Source of the DNA: a virus
Length of the DNA: 47,828 nt
Virus record (IMG/VR): IMGVR_UViG_3300032265_000622
Coordinates: 1 to 47,828 of that record
Strand: one strand, 5' to 3'
Part shown: in pieces, positions 107 through 42,524 of the stretch
Layout of the letters: each line of letters begins with the position of its first letter
Numbering within the stretch: the first letter of the stretch is position 1
Notes under the pieces: model-generated
What the model saw: the letters and a program-made list of their open reading frames with translations, nothing else
Databases searched by the model: none
What the model was told of the DNA's origin: nothing
Position numbers and translations under genes: made by a program

Positions 107-146
107 AAAGAAAAAGTAATTGCTTGAGTTTACGAAAGCAATTACT
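107..146 (-). terminator. Probable intrinsic terminator of the gp26 transcript
   Basis: AGTAATTGCTT (115-125) and AAGCAATTACT (136-146) form an 11-bp perfect stem with a 10-nt loop. Read on the minus strand the stem is followed by TTTTTCTTTCTTC, a T-rich tail. It lies 30-60 bases after the stop codon of the last minus-strand gene (177), where the end of the gp26 transcript is expected. Confidence 0.6.
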
Positions 147-176: not shown

Positions 177-404
177 TTAAAAGAAAGGAAGTCCTGAAGT
201 TTTAGTTGTTTCGAGATTTTCTTTTATAAGTTCCCCGATAGCTTCTCTATCTTCATTACCTAATTGCCATGCTTCATCATAGGTTATACCACCTCGCATA
301 TACCAACAGATCTGTACTATATCTTTCCTAAGAGATTTTGATTCTCGTTCGAGCATGTCAACTTCACTGAGTATCTCCTCCATGCTCATATTAAGGAGTC
401 TCAT
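177..404 (-). CDS. Small tail-assembly protein, likely frameshift extension of gp26
   Basis: A 75-aa, probably helical protein. It contains the stretch RGGITYDEAWQLGNEDRE followed by acidic residues and ends in GLPFF. A GG-[IL]-x-[YL]-[DE]-E pattern followed by a 'DRE...L...N' helix resembles, in my reading, the T/E' portions of frameshifted tail chaperones in other phages. Its ATG overlaps the gp26 stop (ATGA), and the frame is exactly -1 relative to gp26. There is no Shine-Dalgarno ahead of this ATG; the upstream bases are the T-rich end of gp26. It may therefore be made mainly as the C-terminal part of a gp26 fusion of about 360 aa, or by translational coupling. The expected role is to bind the tape measure and tail tube during tail assembly. 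Independent expression cannot be excluded. Confidence 0.65.
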   Translation of the reverse strand: MRLLNMSMEEILSEVDMLERESKSLRKDIVQICWYMRGGITYDEAWQLGNEDREAIGELIKENLETTKTSGLPFF

Positions 405-1258
405 ACGAAAAAATTTGATTGGTCAAACGTTATCGGAATTTCGTAGGACGCAGGAACACCTCTGTCGATATCTTCCTGAGGAGACTGAACTACTAATGGT
501 TTGATACTGCTCTTGCGACGCATATCATTGACGTGATCCATTACTTTATTAAAATAACTTTTATCGGTGTTGTTAAAGAATTCCATTATCTGTTTCTTGT
601 CAGTAACCTTAGCATCCGGAGTATCGATACTGATGACACTAGATATAAACAGATCTAGCGTAAAGTCTGTTAACTTTTTAAAAGCTAGATTAAAATGCAC
701 GAGTTTTTCATCATCGGGCATATTTTGGTCGTCTACTATCTTGAATATCCTCTGTTCTTGGAAAGTTTTCTGAGCATTAACAGTAAACTGCTTGTAGGTC
801 ATGGGGCGTATCTCTACAGTTATCTCATCATTTATGATCACGTACGGCTCGTATTCAAATACGATTAGCTGATCTAACAGTTCTCTGAGATTAACTTCAT
901 AGTCTCTCTCTTCTACGATAACAGGAACCTTAGTGGTTAATGTCATCCTCTCACCGTAGCTAGCCATCCTTATGGCTATCATGATAGCATCTAGGTCTAT
1001 CTGCGGTACTGCCCAAGGATCTAGGATATTTGGTATACAGCTACGTATCACTTCAACAGTCGCATCACCATTGAGCAATGCATCTGGTGTTTTCATCATC
1101 ATTTCGTCTTTTGCAGTGAGGGGAAACACAGGAACTTCTCCTGTGGAAGGCATATCTATTGTGCCTTTGGGATAGTAAGCGCCTTTGCTGGGCAAAGACA
1201 GATATATCTTAGGTTGCCTAAAATATTTCCTCAAAGGGTTATTAAGATCTTGAGCCAC
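401..1258 (-). CDS. 26: T4 gp26-like baseplate hub/tail assembly chaperone
   Basis: This 285-aa protein starts with a GTG; GGAGG lies 7 nt upstream and there is an exact TATAAATA late promoter ahead of it. The N-terminus has the family signature NPLRKYFRQPKIYLSLPSKG, followed by 'FPLTAKDEMMMKTPDALL' and 'RPMTYKQF', and the end is DQSNFFV. These match gp26-type proteins of T4 and cyanophages. T4 gp26 was long called a baseplate hub subunit and is now thought to be a tail-assembly chaperone. The cyanophage versions I recall carry CxxC pairs; here those cysteines are absent. The ORF is longer than T4 gp26 (about 208 aa). The codons for NFF form slippery sequences just before the stop. It is transcribed away from the tape measure, unlike the order in T4. 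Confidence 0.8.
   Translation of the reverse strand: MAQDLNNPLRKYFRQPKIYLSLPSKGAYYPKGTIDMPSTGEVPVFPLTAKDEMMMKTPDALLNGDATVEVIRSCIPNILDPWAVPQIDLDAIMIAIRMASYGERMTLTTKVPVIVEERDYEVNLRELLDQLIVFEYEPYVIINDEITVEIRPMTYKQFTVNAQKTFQEQRIFKIVDDQNMPDDEKLVHFNLAFKKLTDFTLDLFISSVISIDTPDAKVTDKKQIMEFFNNTDKSYFNKVMDHVNDMRRKSSIKPLVVQSPQEDIDRGVPASYEIPITFDQSNFFV
407..416 (-). promoter_or_regulatory. Candidate -1 ribosomal frameshift site at the gp26 end
   Basis: On the minus strand the last gp26 codons read TCA AAT TTT TTC GTA TGA. Two overlapping X XXY YYZ heptamers occur in the zero frame: A AAT TTT (416-410) and T TTT TTC (413-407). A -1 slip bypasses the TGA and continues through CGT into the ATG frame of the 75-aa ORF. 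This matches the gene architecture of lambda G/GT and P2 E/E'. No obvious downstream pseudoknot was identified by eye. NFF is also a conserved protein ending as I recall the family, so the sequence could be kept for amino-acid reasons. Confidence 0.5.
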
Positions 1259-1297: not shown

Positions 1298-1305
1298 TAT
1301 TTATA
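1298..1305 (-). promoter_or_regulatory. T4-type late promoter for gp26
   Basis: The minus strand reads TATAAATA, identical to the T4 late consensus. The predicted start near 1292 would leave a leader of about 34 nt containing GGAGG (1270-1266) before the GTG at 1258. Confidence 0.75.
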
Positions 1306-1330: not shown

Positions 1331-4201
1331 ATGGTTGAAATCCGTGGCGGTGGTACTCTCGATGGCGCACAATTAATTGATGCTGCTAGTGATTCTACTC
1401 TAAGAGAGCTTATCACTACGATACAGATGCAGGGCCAACAAGCAAAAGCCGCACAAGTTGATCAAACGGCTAAGCAGGTCAAAGCTGCGGATATCGATGC
1501 ACTGACTGAATCAACTAAAAAATCAACCAAACAATTTGATGATACTAAAGAATCTACTAAATCATTTAAAGAAAAACTAGATGAGGTCGCTAAATCTCTA
1601 GGGTCCGCATCTGCTACTCTGGCTAGCAAAGGCATCACTAGTCTATTTGATTTCTTTAGTACAGGAATGGATTCATTTCGACAACTAAGCACGATAGGCA
1701 CTGGGTTCAATGGTAATCTAACTGAACTGAGTTCAGTTGCTCTTAATGCTGGACGTAGCGTAAGCGATTTCAGCAAGATAGTAATGGAAAACTCTACTAC
1801 TTTAACTGCGTTAGGAGGTAGTGCCGAAGGCGGCGCTAGGAAATTAGCAGAAATTAGCGGACTTTTAACACAAGGACAGTTGTTGCAGAGAATGTCTGCT
1901 ATGGGTATGACTATGAAAGATATAGATCAAGCTACCCAGGCTTACATGGAATCTCAGATGAGATTAGGAACCTTAACTAGACAAAACGCTTCTGCTATCG
2001 CTGAGCATACTGCACAATTTTCTGAAGGATTAGATGGTGTTAGTCGTGCATTGGGATTGAACAGAAGTGCATTAGAAAAAGCTTCTGTTGATGTTTCAAA
2101 AGATCCTGTTATGAACCAGTTTGTACAAAATATTAGAGAAGCAGGCGGAAATGCTGAGAAAGCTTTTCAAAATCTAACAACTTTGACAGCAGCAGGCGGA
2201 GATAAACTTGCAAATGCGTTCGTACACGTTACTAATGGTCTAGTAGGTAATGATACCCTTGCCCAGGCATTATCAGGTATCAACGGGTCAGTTAGGCAGA
2301 CTATAGCTAATATATCAAAAGGAAATACAGATTTTGCTTCCAATGCACAATATCTTAAAGAAGCTGCTCAATCACAACTACGTGGATTAACAGAATCACA
2401 AATTGAAATAAATCCTAGACTATTAGAACTTAAAAAATTCGTTATAATGATGGAACAATATGGTAATGTATCACAATCTGCATTAGAAAGAGCAAAAGAT
2501 GGATTGTTAGCTAGTTATGATAGTTTTGGAGGAAGATTAGCATCTTTAAGCACCACAATGGGCACTGCTTTAAATCGTTTAATGGGTGCAATAATCGATA
2601 CTGATCTCTTTAAAAGTGTCGAAGCTGGATTGAATAGTTTAGCCAAATACTTAACCTCTGGTGAAAGTACACAAGCATTAAAGCAATTTGCTAATGGTTT
2701 AATGGAAGCATTTCAAAAAGTTTATTCAGCTATGAAAGAAGGATGGACTAATGGCACAGTTTGGACTGCAATAACGGCAGGACTAAATTCTCTTTGGAAT
2801 GATGTTGGCGGTGTATTAGAAAGAGAATTTACTAATATGTTCAATAGGTTTTTTGGAGGAAGGCCGGCAGCACCTATTAATGCAGAGCAGCAAAGTAATG
2901 ATGCGGCTCGAACAGTTGAAACACGGGGACAAGAACAGAGACAATCGTGGGATCGAACATTTACTGATGCTATAGAATCTATAAGACAAAAGGGTTTAGA
3001 ATTTTTTCATTCGTTACCTACTGCACTTACTGAAGGAGTAAACACTGCTAGAGAATCTCTAAGTAGTGTTTTTGGGATGGTCAGTGAATTCGTATCAACC
3101 TTGCCGGAACGTGTGTCGTTTGCTAAAAAAGAACTGCAAAATATCATAGACAGCATTAGTTTAGATAGCATAGGACAAAAGATATCTAATTTTGCTAAAG
3201 AACTGCAAAATATCATAGACAGCATTAGTTTAGATAGCATAGGACAAAAGATATCTAATTTTGCTAAAGATATCAATTCTAGTATACAAACTATAGACCT
3301 AACTAAATTTAACGATTTTATGGCAAATATCCGAGGATTAAGCCTTTCATCCTTGACTGGAGAGATGGAAAGAGTACCAGGGATAGTAGCTAGGGTAAAG
3401 GAAAGTCTAACTGGATTTTCTGATGTTGTTAGGATAGAAATAGACAAATTAAATGAAATTTTCAAACCCGGCGCATCAGGACCTGAAGCGATACAAAATA
3501 TCAGCAGGGCACTAATGCAATTTGAAGGACCGTTGAGAACTTTAATTAACAACATAAGCGGATTGAACGGAGAAACTGCGCAAACATTAACTTCTTCTTC
3601 TATCAGTAACGTATTGACTAGCATAACTGGTTTCATAGAAAAAACAACGCAGGGTATAAAAACTTTAGAAAATATCAACCCAGAACAGATGCAGAGAAAC
3701 ATGGGTGCTATACGTTCTATAGGCGTAGAAATGAGGCAGTTTTTTGATAATTTTGGCGTTGGAACAGCTTGGAGCACTTTTATCGGAAATGTGTCAGGCG
3801 CTTTTGATACTGTATCTGAAAACATAAAAAAATTACAAAATATCAATGTAGATGCAGTAAATGGTATCGTGACCTCAATGAATCAGCTCAAAGGTATAGG
3901 AGCTAGTTTAGGTGCAGATATACAGGGAGTTACTACATTTACAGAAAGTGTTAGTGTATTGAGGCGAGAGCTAGAAGCAGGTGCTTCTGCTGCTGAACGC
4001 ATCAAAGCAGCAGCAGGAAGCTTACCTGCTGGTACTGGTGGCATAGCTGGAGCTAATAATTATAATCAAATAGATCCCAATCAAATATACCAAACAATGA
4101 GAGATATTAATGGTTCACTAGGTAGTTTAAACAATTATCTAAACACCATAGCAGCTAATTCTGCCGCACCGAGTGCTCCTGCTATAACTCATCGACAATA
4201 A
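1331..4201 (+). CDS. Tail tape measure protein
   Basis: A 956-aa, mostly helical protein rich in Ala, Ser, Gln, Leu and Ile. It has long heptad-like segments and no signal peptide. The region at about residues 110-330 ('FRQLSTIGTGFNG', 'GRSVSDFS', 'TTLTALGGSAEGGARK', then 'RSALEKASVD') resembles tape-measure proteins of many contractile-tailed phages. It would act as the ruler inside the tail tube, as gp29 (about 590 aa) does in T4. The divergent neighbour is the gp26-like chaperone, which fits a tape-measure/chaperone pair. Residues 601-646 contain a perfect tandem duplication of 23 residues, which should affect tail length. The Shine-Dalgarno is weak (GGTG). There is no detectable lysozyme or peptidase motif. 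It is probably gp29-equivalent, but I cannot show sequence homology to T4 gp29 by eye. Confidence 0.7.
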   Translation: MVEIRGGGTLDGAQLIDAASDSTLRELITTIQMQGQQAKAAQVDQTAKQVKAADIDALTESTKKSTKQFDDTKESTKSFKEKLDEVAKSLGSASATLASKGITSLFDFFSTGMDSFRQLSTIGTGFNGNLTELSSVALNAGRSVSDFSKIVMENSTTLTALGGSAEGGARKLAEISGLLTQGQLLQRMSAMGMTMKDIDQATQAYMESQMRLGTLTRQNASAIAEHTAQFSEGLDGVSRALGLNRSALEKASVDVSKDPVMNQFVQNIREAGGNAEKAFQNLTTLTAAGGDKLANAFVHVTNGLVGNDTLAQALSGINGSVRQTIANISKGNTDFASNAQYLKEAAQSQLRGLTESQIEINPRLLELKKFVIMMEQYGNVSQSALERAKDGLLASYDSFGGRLASLSTTMGTALNRLMGAIIDTDLFKSVEAGLNSLAKYLTSGESTQALKQFANGLMEAFQKVYSAMKEGWTNGTVWTAITAGLNSLWNDVGGVLEREFTNMFNRFFGGRPAAPINAEQQSNDAARTVETRGQEQRQSWDRTFTDAIESIRQKGLEFFHSLPTALTEGVNTARESLSSVFGMVSEFVSTLPERVSFAKKELQNIIDSISLDSIGQKISNFAKELQNIIDSISLDSIGQKISNFAKDINSSIQTIDLTKFNDFMANIRGLSLSSLTGEMERVPGIVARVKESLTGFSDVVRIEIDKLNEIFKPGASGPEAIQNISRALMQFEGPLRTLINNISGLNGETAQTLTSSSISNVLTSITGFIEKTTQGIKTLENINPEQMQRNMGAIRSIGVEMRQFFDNFGVGTAWSTFIGNVSGAFDTVSENIKKLQNINVDAVNGIVTSMNQLKGIGASLGADIQGVTTFTESVSVLRRELEAGASAAERIKAAAGSLPAGTGGIAGANNYNQIDPNQIYQTMRDINGSLGSLNNYLNTIAANSAAPSAPAITHRQ
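3131..3268 (+). repeat. Perfect 69-bp tandem duplication in tape measure
   Basis: Two adjacent identical 69-bp copies (3131-3199 and 3200-3268) each encode 23 residues beginning ELQNIIDSIS and ending SNFAK. A partial match, TTTGCTAAA, precedes copy 1 at 3119-3127 and also ends each copy, so recombination across this 9-mer could have created the duplication. The absence of any silent difference indicates a recent event or an assembly artefact. Confidence 0.95.
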
Positions 4202-41969: not shown

Positions 41970-42524
41970 TTACCCTCCAGATTTGCGACTAAGCGCCTTA
42001 ATAGCATGGGCTTGTCTTCTATTTGCAGCGCCTTCAATGCCATAAATTTCTTCCCAAGTCATACCTTGTTTTTTACCTTTATTTGACGATGTTCCGCCCT
42101 TATTTGGATGAGTTTTTCCTAACATTGCTCCGCCGTCTTTTCTTATCCAAGTATCAGTGCCCAGTTTTTTTCGCCTTGCGTGAGCATTTTTTTGAGCTGT
42201 ACTCATGCGTTTTATACTTTCTAGATTATGTGTTTTATTATCTCCAGGAGTTCTTATATTAAAGCCGTTATTAATAGAATCATATTCTATTACATATTTT
42301 TCTTCTAAAATATTTAACTCTTCTAGAGAAACAGCATTTTTATCTATCACTTCAAAGATAAAAGAATCAATACCATATTTCTTTATAGCATTATGGAAAT
42401 GATAAGTTTTTTCACTATATCTACTACCGCTAATATGTTCTAATCTACGATGGTTAGGATCTTGTATAGTTTGACCTATATAAGAACGCCCAGAATCTAT
42501 ATGTGTAAACTTATAGATATACAT
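41970..42524 (-). CDS. GIY-YIG homing endonuclease with NUMOD3-like tail
   Basis: A 184-aa protein. The N-terminal GIY-YIG nuclease domain begins 'MYIYKFTHIDSGRSYIGQT', then 'RRLEHISG' supplies the Arg/His positions, and 'LEELNILEEKYVIEYDS' with 'NGFNIR' holds the catalytic Glu. A second half with 'RMSTAQKNAHARRKKLG', 'GKTHPNKGGTSSNKGKKQ' and 'MTWEEIYGIEGA' matches NUMOD3-type DNA-binding segments of Seg/I-TevI-like enzymes. It is a free-standing gene placed exactly between gp14 and gp15: its ATG overlaps the gp14 stop (TAATG), and its last codons form the gp15 Shine-Dalgarno. Such genes spread by cutting alleles that lack them. It looks intact. Confidence 0.9.
   Translation of the reverse strand: MYIYKFTHIDSGRSYIGQTIQDPNHRRLEHISGSRYSEKTYHFHNAIKKYGIDSFIFEVIDKNAVSLEELNILEEKYVIEYDSINNGFNIRTPGDNKTHNLESIKRMSTAQKNAHARRKKLGTDTWIRKDGGAMLGKTHPNKGGTSSNKGKKQGMTWEEIYGIEGAANRRQAHAIKALSRKSGG

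Follow-up and report, generated by a model that had tools for sequence, protein, structure and literature searches.

Comparative evidence for a programmed -1 frameshift at the end of gp26 in an uncultured T4-related virus and its relatives

Introduction

In the viral DNA analysed here, a gene related to T4 gp26 ends in a run of T residues, and a 75-aa open reading frame (ORF) begins at an ATG that overlaps its stop codon. The question raised by this locus is whether the small ORF is a gene of its own or is reached by ribosomes that shift back one base at the end of gp26, so that a short and a long protein are made from one gene. A preliminary description of the DNA, made from its letters, had proposed a programmed -1 frameshift, and we followed up this proposal by comparison with related phages. 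The window, that is, the whole stretch analysed, is the complete IMG/VR virus record IMGVR_UViG_3300032265_000622 (47,828 nt), and this 47.8-kb record is probably a fragment of a virus. A T4-type portal and a major head protein are encoded near gp26.

The end of gp26 and its -1 frame

The PF12322 score of the gp26 product was 45.1 bits against a curated Pfam cut-off of 24.5, and the product also matched PHROG 150, baseplate hub (E 8e-15). A match to DUF7391 in Pfam scored under its cut-off. The features of the gene and its end are as follows.

1258..401, minus strand: short form of gp26 (TAC-N-like), 285 aa from a GTG start; PF12322 (T4 baseplate hub/chaperone family)
416..410, minus strand: second, overlapping heptamer A_AAT_TTT, in frame as X_XXY_YYZ
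413..407, minus strand: slippery heptamer T_TTT_TTC, in frame as X_XXY_YYZ
403..401, minus strand: gp26 stop TGA, bypassed by the proposed -1 shift
413..180, minus strand: putative C-terminal T-like domain, -1 frame from the slip site, 78 codons including the two slipped Phe codons
404..177, minus strand: 75-aa ORF from ATG, which overlaps the gp26 stop as ATGA

The 3' end of the gene in the window reads TCA AAT TTT TTC GTA TGA, with a single sense codon (GTA) between T_TTT_TTC and the TGA. Both heptamers thus lie in frame just before the stop, as the preliminary description had stated. Its further statement that a -1 slip enters the frame of the 75-aa ORF was confirmed: on the minus strand no stop interrupts the -1 frame between 422, which is 22 nt before the gp26 end, and 180; the frame takes in the 75-aa ORF and stops at 179..177. 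A slip on either heptamer would yield the same product, which reads ...FDQSNFF and then RMRLLNMSMEEIL... in translation and has about 360 aa. The predicted fusion sequence across the junction is ...FDQSNFFRMRLLNMSM..., and the predicted transframe peptide in the form of the window, ending in ...FFR, is GVPASYEIPITFDQSNFFR. Searches of PHROGs and Pfam with the 75-aa ORF gave nothing convincing. TTTTTTC is not rare in the window (10 seen versus 5.7 expected by shuffling), and therefore the window taken alone would be only suggestive.

Several other elements of the window were observed. The sequence TATAAATA, which we take to be a T4-late-promoter-like element, is located at 1298..1305 on the minus strand, 40 nt ahead of the gp26 start; it has three copies in the window versus 6.8 expected, and the other two (13925 and 44041) are also just before ORFs. 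Reading of the sequence at 111-146 (minus strand) found a terminator-like element, with an 11-bp stem AGTAATTGCTT/AAGCAATTACT, a 10-nt loop and then five T, which starts 31 nt beyond the end of the -1 ORF. The promoter/terminator scan of the window, which allowed loops of up to 8 nt only, reported no terminator. A GIY-YIG homing endonuclease-like ORF is found at 41970-42524, amid virion structural genes.

Conservation of the heptamer and the -1 frame

A tblastn search with gp26 found 61 phage records, 57 of them with at least 80% coverage and all with less than 60% identity. The first-round set consisted of 20 sequences, i.e., the window, 16 annotated isolate records and three IMG/VR loci (L001-L003), of which L001 is almost identical to the window. 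An in-frame heptamer and an open -1 frame were present in 20/20, as T_TTT_TTC in 19 and T_TTT_TTT in one. A profile search gave 79 more IMG/VR loci, and all 78 usable ones had the heptamer and the open -1 frame. Other T4-related groups were represented by S-PM2, KVP40, HTVC008M, Cr30 and PhiW-14, located via PF12322. T_TTT_TTY and an open -1 domain were found in all five, and a profile made from them gave 80 further loci, 80/80 of which had the heptamer and the open -1 frame, although in one of these S-PM2/KVP40/Cr30-type loci the frame extends only 12 codons past the stop. The two profile searches each kept the best 80 of a larger set, and therefore these counts describe the best matches and not the whole collection. 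Altogether, in-frame T_TTT_TTY with an open -1 extension was present in 183/183 related gp26 genes with a readable stop, which fall into 144, 78 and 14 clusters at 90%, 70% and 50% identity, respectively; one sequence (L066), which ends before the gp26 stop, was left out of the 183. The preliminary description had named joint conservation of the heptamer and the -1 frame in relatives as the test of its frameshift, and the proposal is supported by this result.

A_AAT_TTT was present in the window, in L001-L003 and in 64 of the 78 further close relatives, and it was absent from the 16 isolates. As conservation of this heptamer does not reach beyond the close clade, the relevant site is T_TTT_TTC. 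Phe-Phe itself is conserved at the site, and the choice of codons is therefore the proper test. Other Phe-Phe pairs in the same genes were written as T_TTT_TTY in only 2 of 128 cases (1/50 in set 1 and 1/78 in set 2). The difference between the site and the other pairs in set 1 gave a Fisher p of 1.6e-39, which overstates the independent evidence since the sequences are kin. The relatives, compared in this way, show that T_TTT_TTY at the end of gp26 exceeds chance.

From the sequence comparison and the analogy with known systems, we consider it very probable that the end of gp26 is a programmed -1 frameshift and that its short and long products are tail assembly chaperones. Most ribosomes would stop at the TGA to give the 285-aa gp26, and in a minority a one-base backward slip on T_TTT_TTC, with re-pairing as TTT_TTT, would lead into the -1 frame, so that a helical domain would be added and the fusion would have about 360 aa. 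Two forms would be produced from one gene, as far as can be judged at the level of sequence, and the support for the frameshift is as strong as a comparison of sequences by itself can provide. What we infer from these data is the existence of the fusion protein, its part in tail assembly and the efficiency of the shift; the chaperone role of the two forms is likely by analogy.

The added domain and T4 gp51

The AF2 prediction of the added -1 domain has four helices from the slip site, with a pLDDT of 91.4. T4 has two PF12322 genes, gp26 and the longer gp51. The entire PF12322 model is matched by residues 1-201 of gp51, and for the last 52 residues of gp51 hhalign gave a match to the cyanophage-type -1 domain (90.7%). 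The cyanophage-type domain in turn matches the jumbo set (hhalign, 82.5%; E 1e-5 for a single comparison). A direct comparison of the T-domain set of the window with T4 gp51 gave 1.5%, and the two are linked only through the cyanophage-type set. These computations support homology of the added domain among the T4-related groups, and by the profile matches gp51 is related to gp26 and has the additional domain in one continuous frame. A similarity of the small KVP40 ORF to the end of T4 gp51 is already mentioned in the record of that phage. Sullivan 2010 describes, in the available portion of PMC3037559, cyanophage gp51 as about 20% of the length, with the first ~200 residues missing. A fold search of the PDB with the T domain found no relative, the top matches being common helical arrangements, and the fold match to the Moogle tape measure chaperone was only weak (rank 13, E 1.7).

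The heptamer was absent from five T-even gp26 genes (0/5; T4, L116-L118 and L120). In one T-even relative (L120, 2501-3121) the Phe-Phe pair reads GAG TTT TTT AAA, where the preceding base is G and there is consequently no canonical heptamer. This sequence might show how the slippery site was lost.

The tape-measure candidate and the proposed role of the products

One further feature lies on the opposite strand, upstream of gp26.

1331..4201, plus strand: candidate tape measure of 956 aa, in head-to-head orientation to gp26; position shared by most jumbo relatives

A protein of 619-1074 aa adjoins gp26 in the jumbo group and in the window, and it is head-to-head with gp26 in most of them; it is on the same strand as gp26 in Vibrio 2.275, and the arrangement does not hold in Atu_ph07 and RAS14. 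We infer that this large neighbour is the tape measure in the window and the jumbo group. The annotated tape measure gene of Cr30 is located one small gene downstream of gp26. In S-PM2 and KVP40 a large ORF, a tape measure by its size, follows directly on the same strand, and in set 2 a large ORF follows in 71 of the 72 loci with at least 900 nt. Ruler proteins span 0.15 nm per amino acid. For CBB, 722 aa x 0.15 nm gives 108 nm versus a 123-nm tail in the available part of the source, which fits but proves little. Comparison of the candidate with T4 gp29 and the tape measures of S-PM2, KVP40 and Cr30 by phmmer and hhalign gave no convincing match, and two phmmer matches to Cr30 in the four-sequence database were taken as composition. 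A perfect 69-bp (23-aa) tandem repeat of 2.1 copies is present at 3128-3270 inside the 956-aa candidate; it reads as a recent in-frame duplication, which would lengthen a ruler protein.

In the lambda G/GT system, according to the accessible portion of PMC5009743, the tape measure is bound by both forms, and tube subunits are brought in by the extra domain of the rarer form. By analogy, the part shared by the gp26 products would coat the tape measure protein, and tail tube subunits would be recruited by the domain present only in the rare long form. The gp26 model had no significant PDB match, with the HK97 chaperone 2ob9 at rank 22 (E 3.4) and common helical arrangements as the best matches, and a PDB sequence search with the gp26 profile found no relative. 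A BFVD fold search with the model returned T4-like hub proteins. The same search also gave weak, repeated matches to proteins of ~490-550 aa in Special G, RSF1, RP12 and Eowyn, and from the models these may be tail chaperones that have gone unrecognised in other jumbo phages.

The products of a real frameshift may also be baseplate hub components of the virion and not transient chaperones. gp26 is annotated as baseplate hub, and the T4 review mentions, in the part available, that the hub may contain gp26 (PMC3004832). The RaK2 list of undetected proteins, as far as its text is accessible, names gp088, the tape-measure candidate, and not gp087, which is probably gp26; since gp087 is not among the undetected proteins, this text suggests that gp26 was found in RaK2 virions. 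On the other hand, the same part of PMC3004832 lists T4 gp26 and gp51 as hub assembly chaperones, with gp51 not in the final particle, the accessible CBB virion list includes CBB_251 and omits CBB_249/250, and gp26 of Cr30 has the tape measure as its neighbour. The PA5oct record marks the portal and the neighbour as seen by MS, and gp26 is not marked. The virion evidence thus points both ways. We regard a role as virion components as unlikely and prefer that of assembly chaperones.

Proposed reading of the -1 frame past the gp26 stop

The 75-aa ORF could also be a gene of its own, with translation by termination-reinitiation at the ATGA overlap. Its ATG overlaps the stop in the window, in L001-L003 and in some relatives, and the -1 ORF is annotated as a separate gene in the Phosso record. 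However, 65 of 101 relatives lack an ATG within the 12 codons that follow the slip, and 42 of the 101 had none of ATG, GTG and TTG there. At the gp26 stop, the -1 frame reads Ile in relatives ending with TAA and Met in those ending with TGA, so that the ATG of the window is a by-product of the stop codon. No Shine-Dalgarno-like stretch was seen in the window ahead of this ATG (404..402), in agreement with the preliminary description. A second gene lying in other frames or having a strong ribosome site, which that description had named as evidence against its proposal, was not found among the relatives, most of which have no nearby ATG. The end of the 0-frame stop drifts from 3 to 36 nt past the heptamer end among relatives, and the -1 frame stays open through these stops. 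Despite this drift, the -1 peptide begins FFR..LL at the heptamer in most relatives; its part before the ATG (FFR) is conserved. In addition, the domain is present in fused form in T4 gp51. Beyond the stop, third positions of the -1 frame took 2176 of 3733 substitutions (58%), counted as nearest-neighbour differences in 76 pairs, some of them from both sides, and this frame is under coding constraint there. A separate gene is highly improbable, and in the best reading of these sequences the 75-aa ORF, whose ATG is not conserved, is part of the frameshift product. None of the records of the 16 annotated relatives joins the two frames, and no gene is entered for the -1 domain in the RaK2 and PA5oct records.

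RNA pairing downstream of the heptamer

The stretch in question is the following.

406..340, minus strand: stretch with a stem in relatives, 5 nt past the heptamer; evidence from the group

The 45 nt after the heptamer had a mean fold of -10.9 kcal/mol versus -5.0 kcal/mol for the gp26 background (98 sequences), and the values for set 2 were -10.2 versus -4.8 kcal/mol. A z below -2 was obtained downstream in 36/98 versus 5/98 upstream. RNAalifold gave no consensus for a common structure (76 ungapped junctions of 98), and the pairing was therefore tested in each sequence against swapped partners. In this pairing the 5' arm lies about 5 nt past the heptamer, and its downstream partner is located at one of several positions. 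The mean for own arm pairs was -11.8 versus -8.2 for swapped ones (85 sequences), and -10.3 versus -7.0 in set 2. Kinship as the cause of this result was tested by an upstream control arm, for which z was +0.5, and by 52 representatives of the 70% clusters, for which own pairing was still better than swapped (0/20000 permutations). In the isolates alone (12 sequences) the pairing was weakly better than swapped, with p 0.022, and it was weak in most enterobacterial jumbo phages. The fold of the window itself was no better than shuffles (z -0.30, and -0.97 in another run). The stimulatory RNA element is clear for the group of relatives, and the window's own fold is unremarkable. An upstream Shine-Dalgarno-like stimulator was also sought, with no match in 82/98, a three-base match in 15 and a four-base match in one, and such a stimulator was rejected. 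Production of the fusion by RNA polymerase slippage on the T run, and not by the ribosome, is highly improbable. A run of at least six T is present in 183/183, and the insertion of a single T would lead to the same protein; however, a length of six T is short for polymerase slippage, the run is always in X_XXY_YYZ phase, and the paired arm sits close after it.

Discussion

Tail assembly chaperones of T4-like phages are treated by Vladimirov, Gautam and Davidson 2022 (cited in PMC10885494 and PMC12846349), to whom the accessible text of PMC12846349 credits polyT -1 sites in TAC-N genes of these phages. Such shifts are thus already in print, and the preliminary description, which knew of no established case in T4-type gp26, needs correction on this point. 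What appears new from our comparison is the extension to jumbo phages of the RaK2, PA5oct and Atu_ph07 types and to the uncultured clade of the window; in the accessible literature our search found no description of a gp26 frameshift in jumbo T4-related phages.

We think it likely that the T_TTT_TTY shift is ancestral and near-universal in the T4-related superfamily, including its jumbo and uncultured members, that it is aided by a stem whose 5' arm stayed fixed and whose 3' arm moved, and that the T-even phages exchanged recoding for the gp26 and gp51 duplication. The accessible part of PMC5009743 describes the -1 shift as widely conserved except in T4; if our reading is true, the place of T4 as the cited exception in long-tailed phages would reflect a secondary loss. 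The puzzling short cyanophage 'gp51' would be no gene of its own, and a shift in gp26 would explain its truncated look in the accessible text of Sullivan 2010 (PMC3037559). One need, a ratio of short to long chaperone, would have two solutions, recoding in most T4-related phages and duplicated genes in the T-evens. Joined frames would correct the gene models of a large phage group, and a tape-measure candidate is singled out in the jumbo phages.

Comparison with known systems

The preliminary description equated the layout with lambda G/GT and P2 E/E'. The likeness stands in that a C-terminal domain is added by a -1 shift close to the 3' end of a chaperone gene, as in both of these systems; it fails in the gene order, which differs from that of the window. 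The slippery heptamers of lambda and P2 also differ from the T_TTT_TTC of gp26, and no sequence relation has been shown. T4 gp26/gp51 resemble the system of the window in the PF12322 family, in the related C-terminal domain and in the existence of a short and a long form, but T4 uses two genes and no heptamer, whereas the phage of the window would use one gene and a -1 shift. In S-PM2, HTVC008M, KVP40, Cr30 and PhiW-14, gp26 with the short 'gp51' likewise has T_TTT_TTY and an open -1 domain. The tape measure follows on the same strand in Cr30 (annotated) and in S-PM2 and KVP40 (by size), whereas the candidate of the window is head-to-head, upstream of gp26 on the other strand. TAC-N of Vandenendeviridae and Andersonviridae likewise has a conserved -1 shift at a polyT near its end, but with the motif GTTTTT and a gene set different from that of the window, according to the accessible text of PMC12846349.
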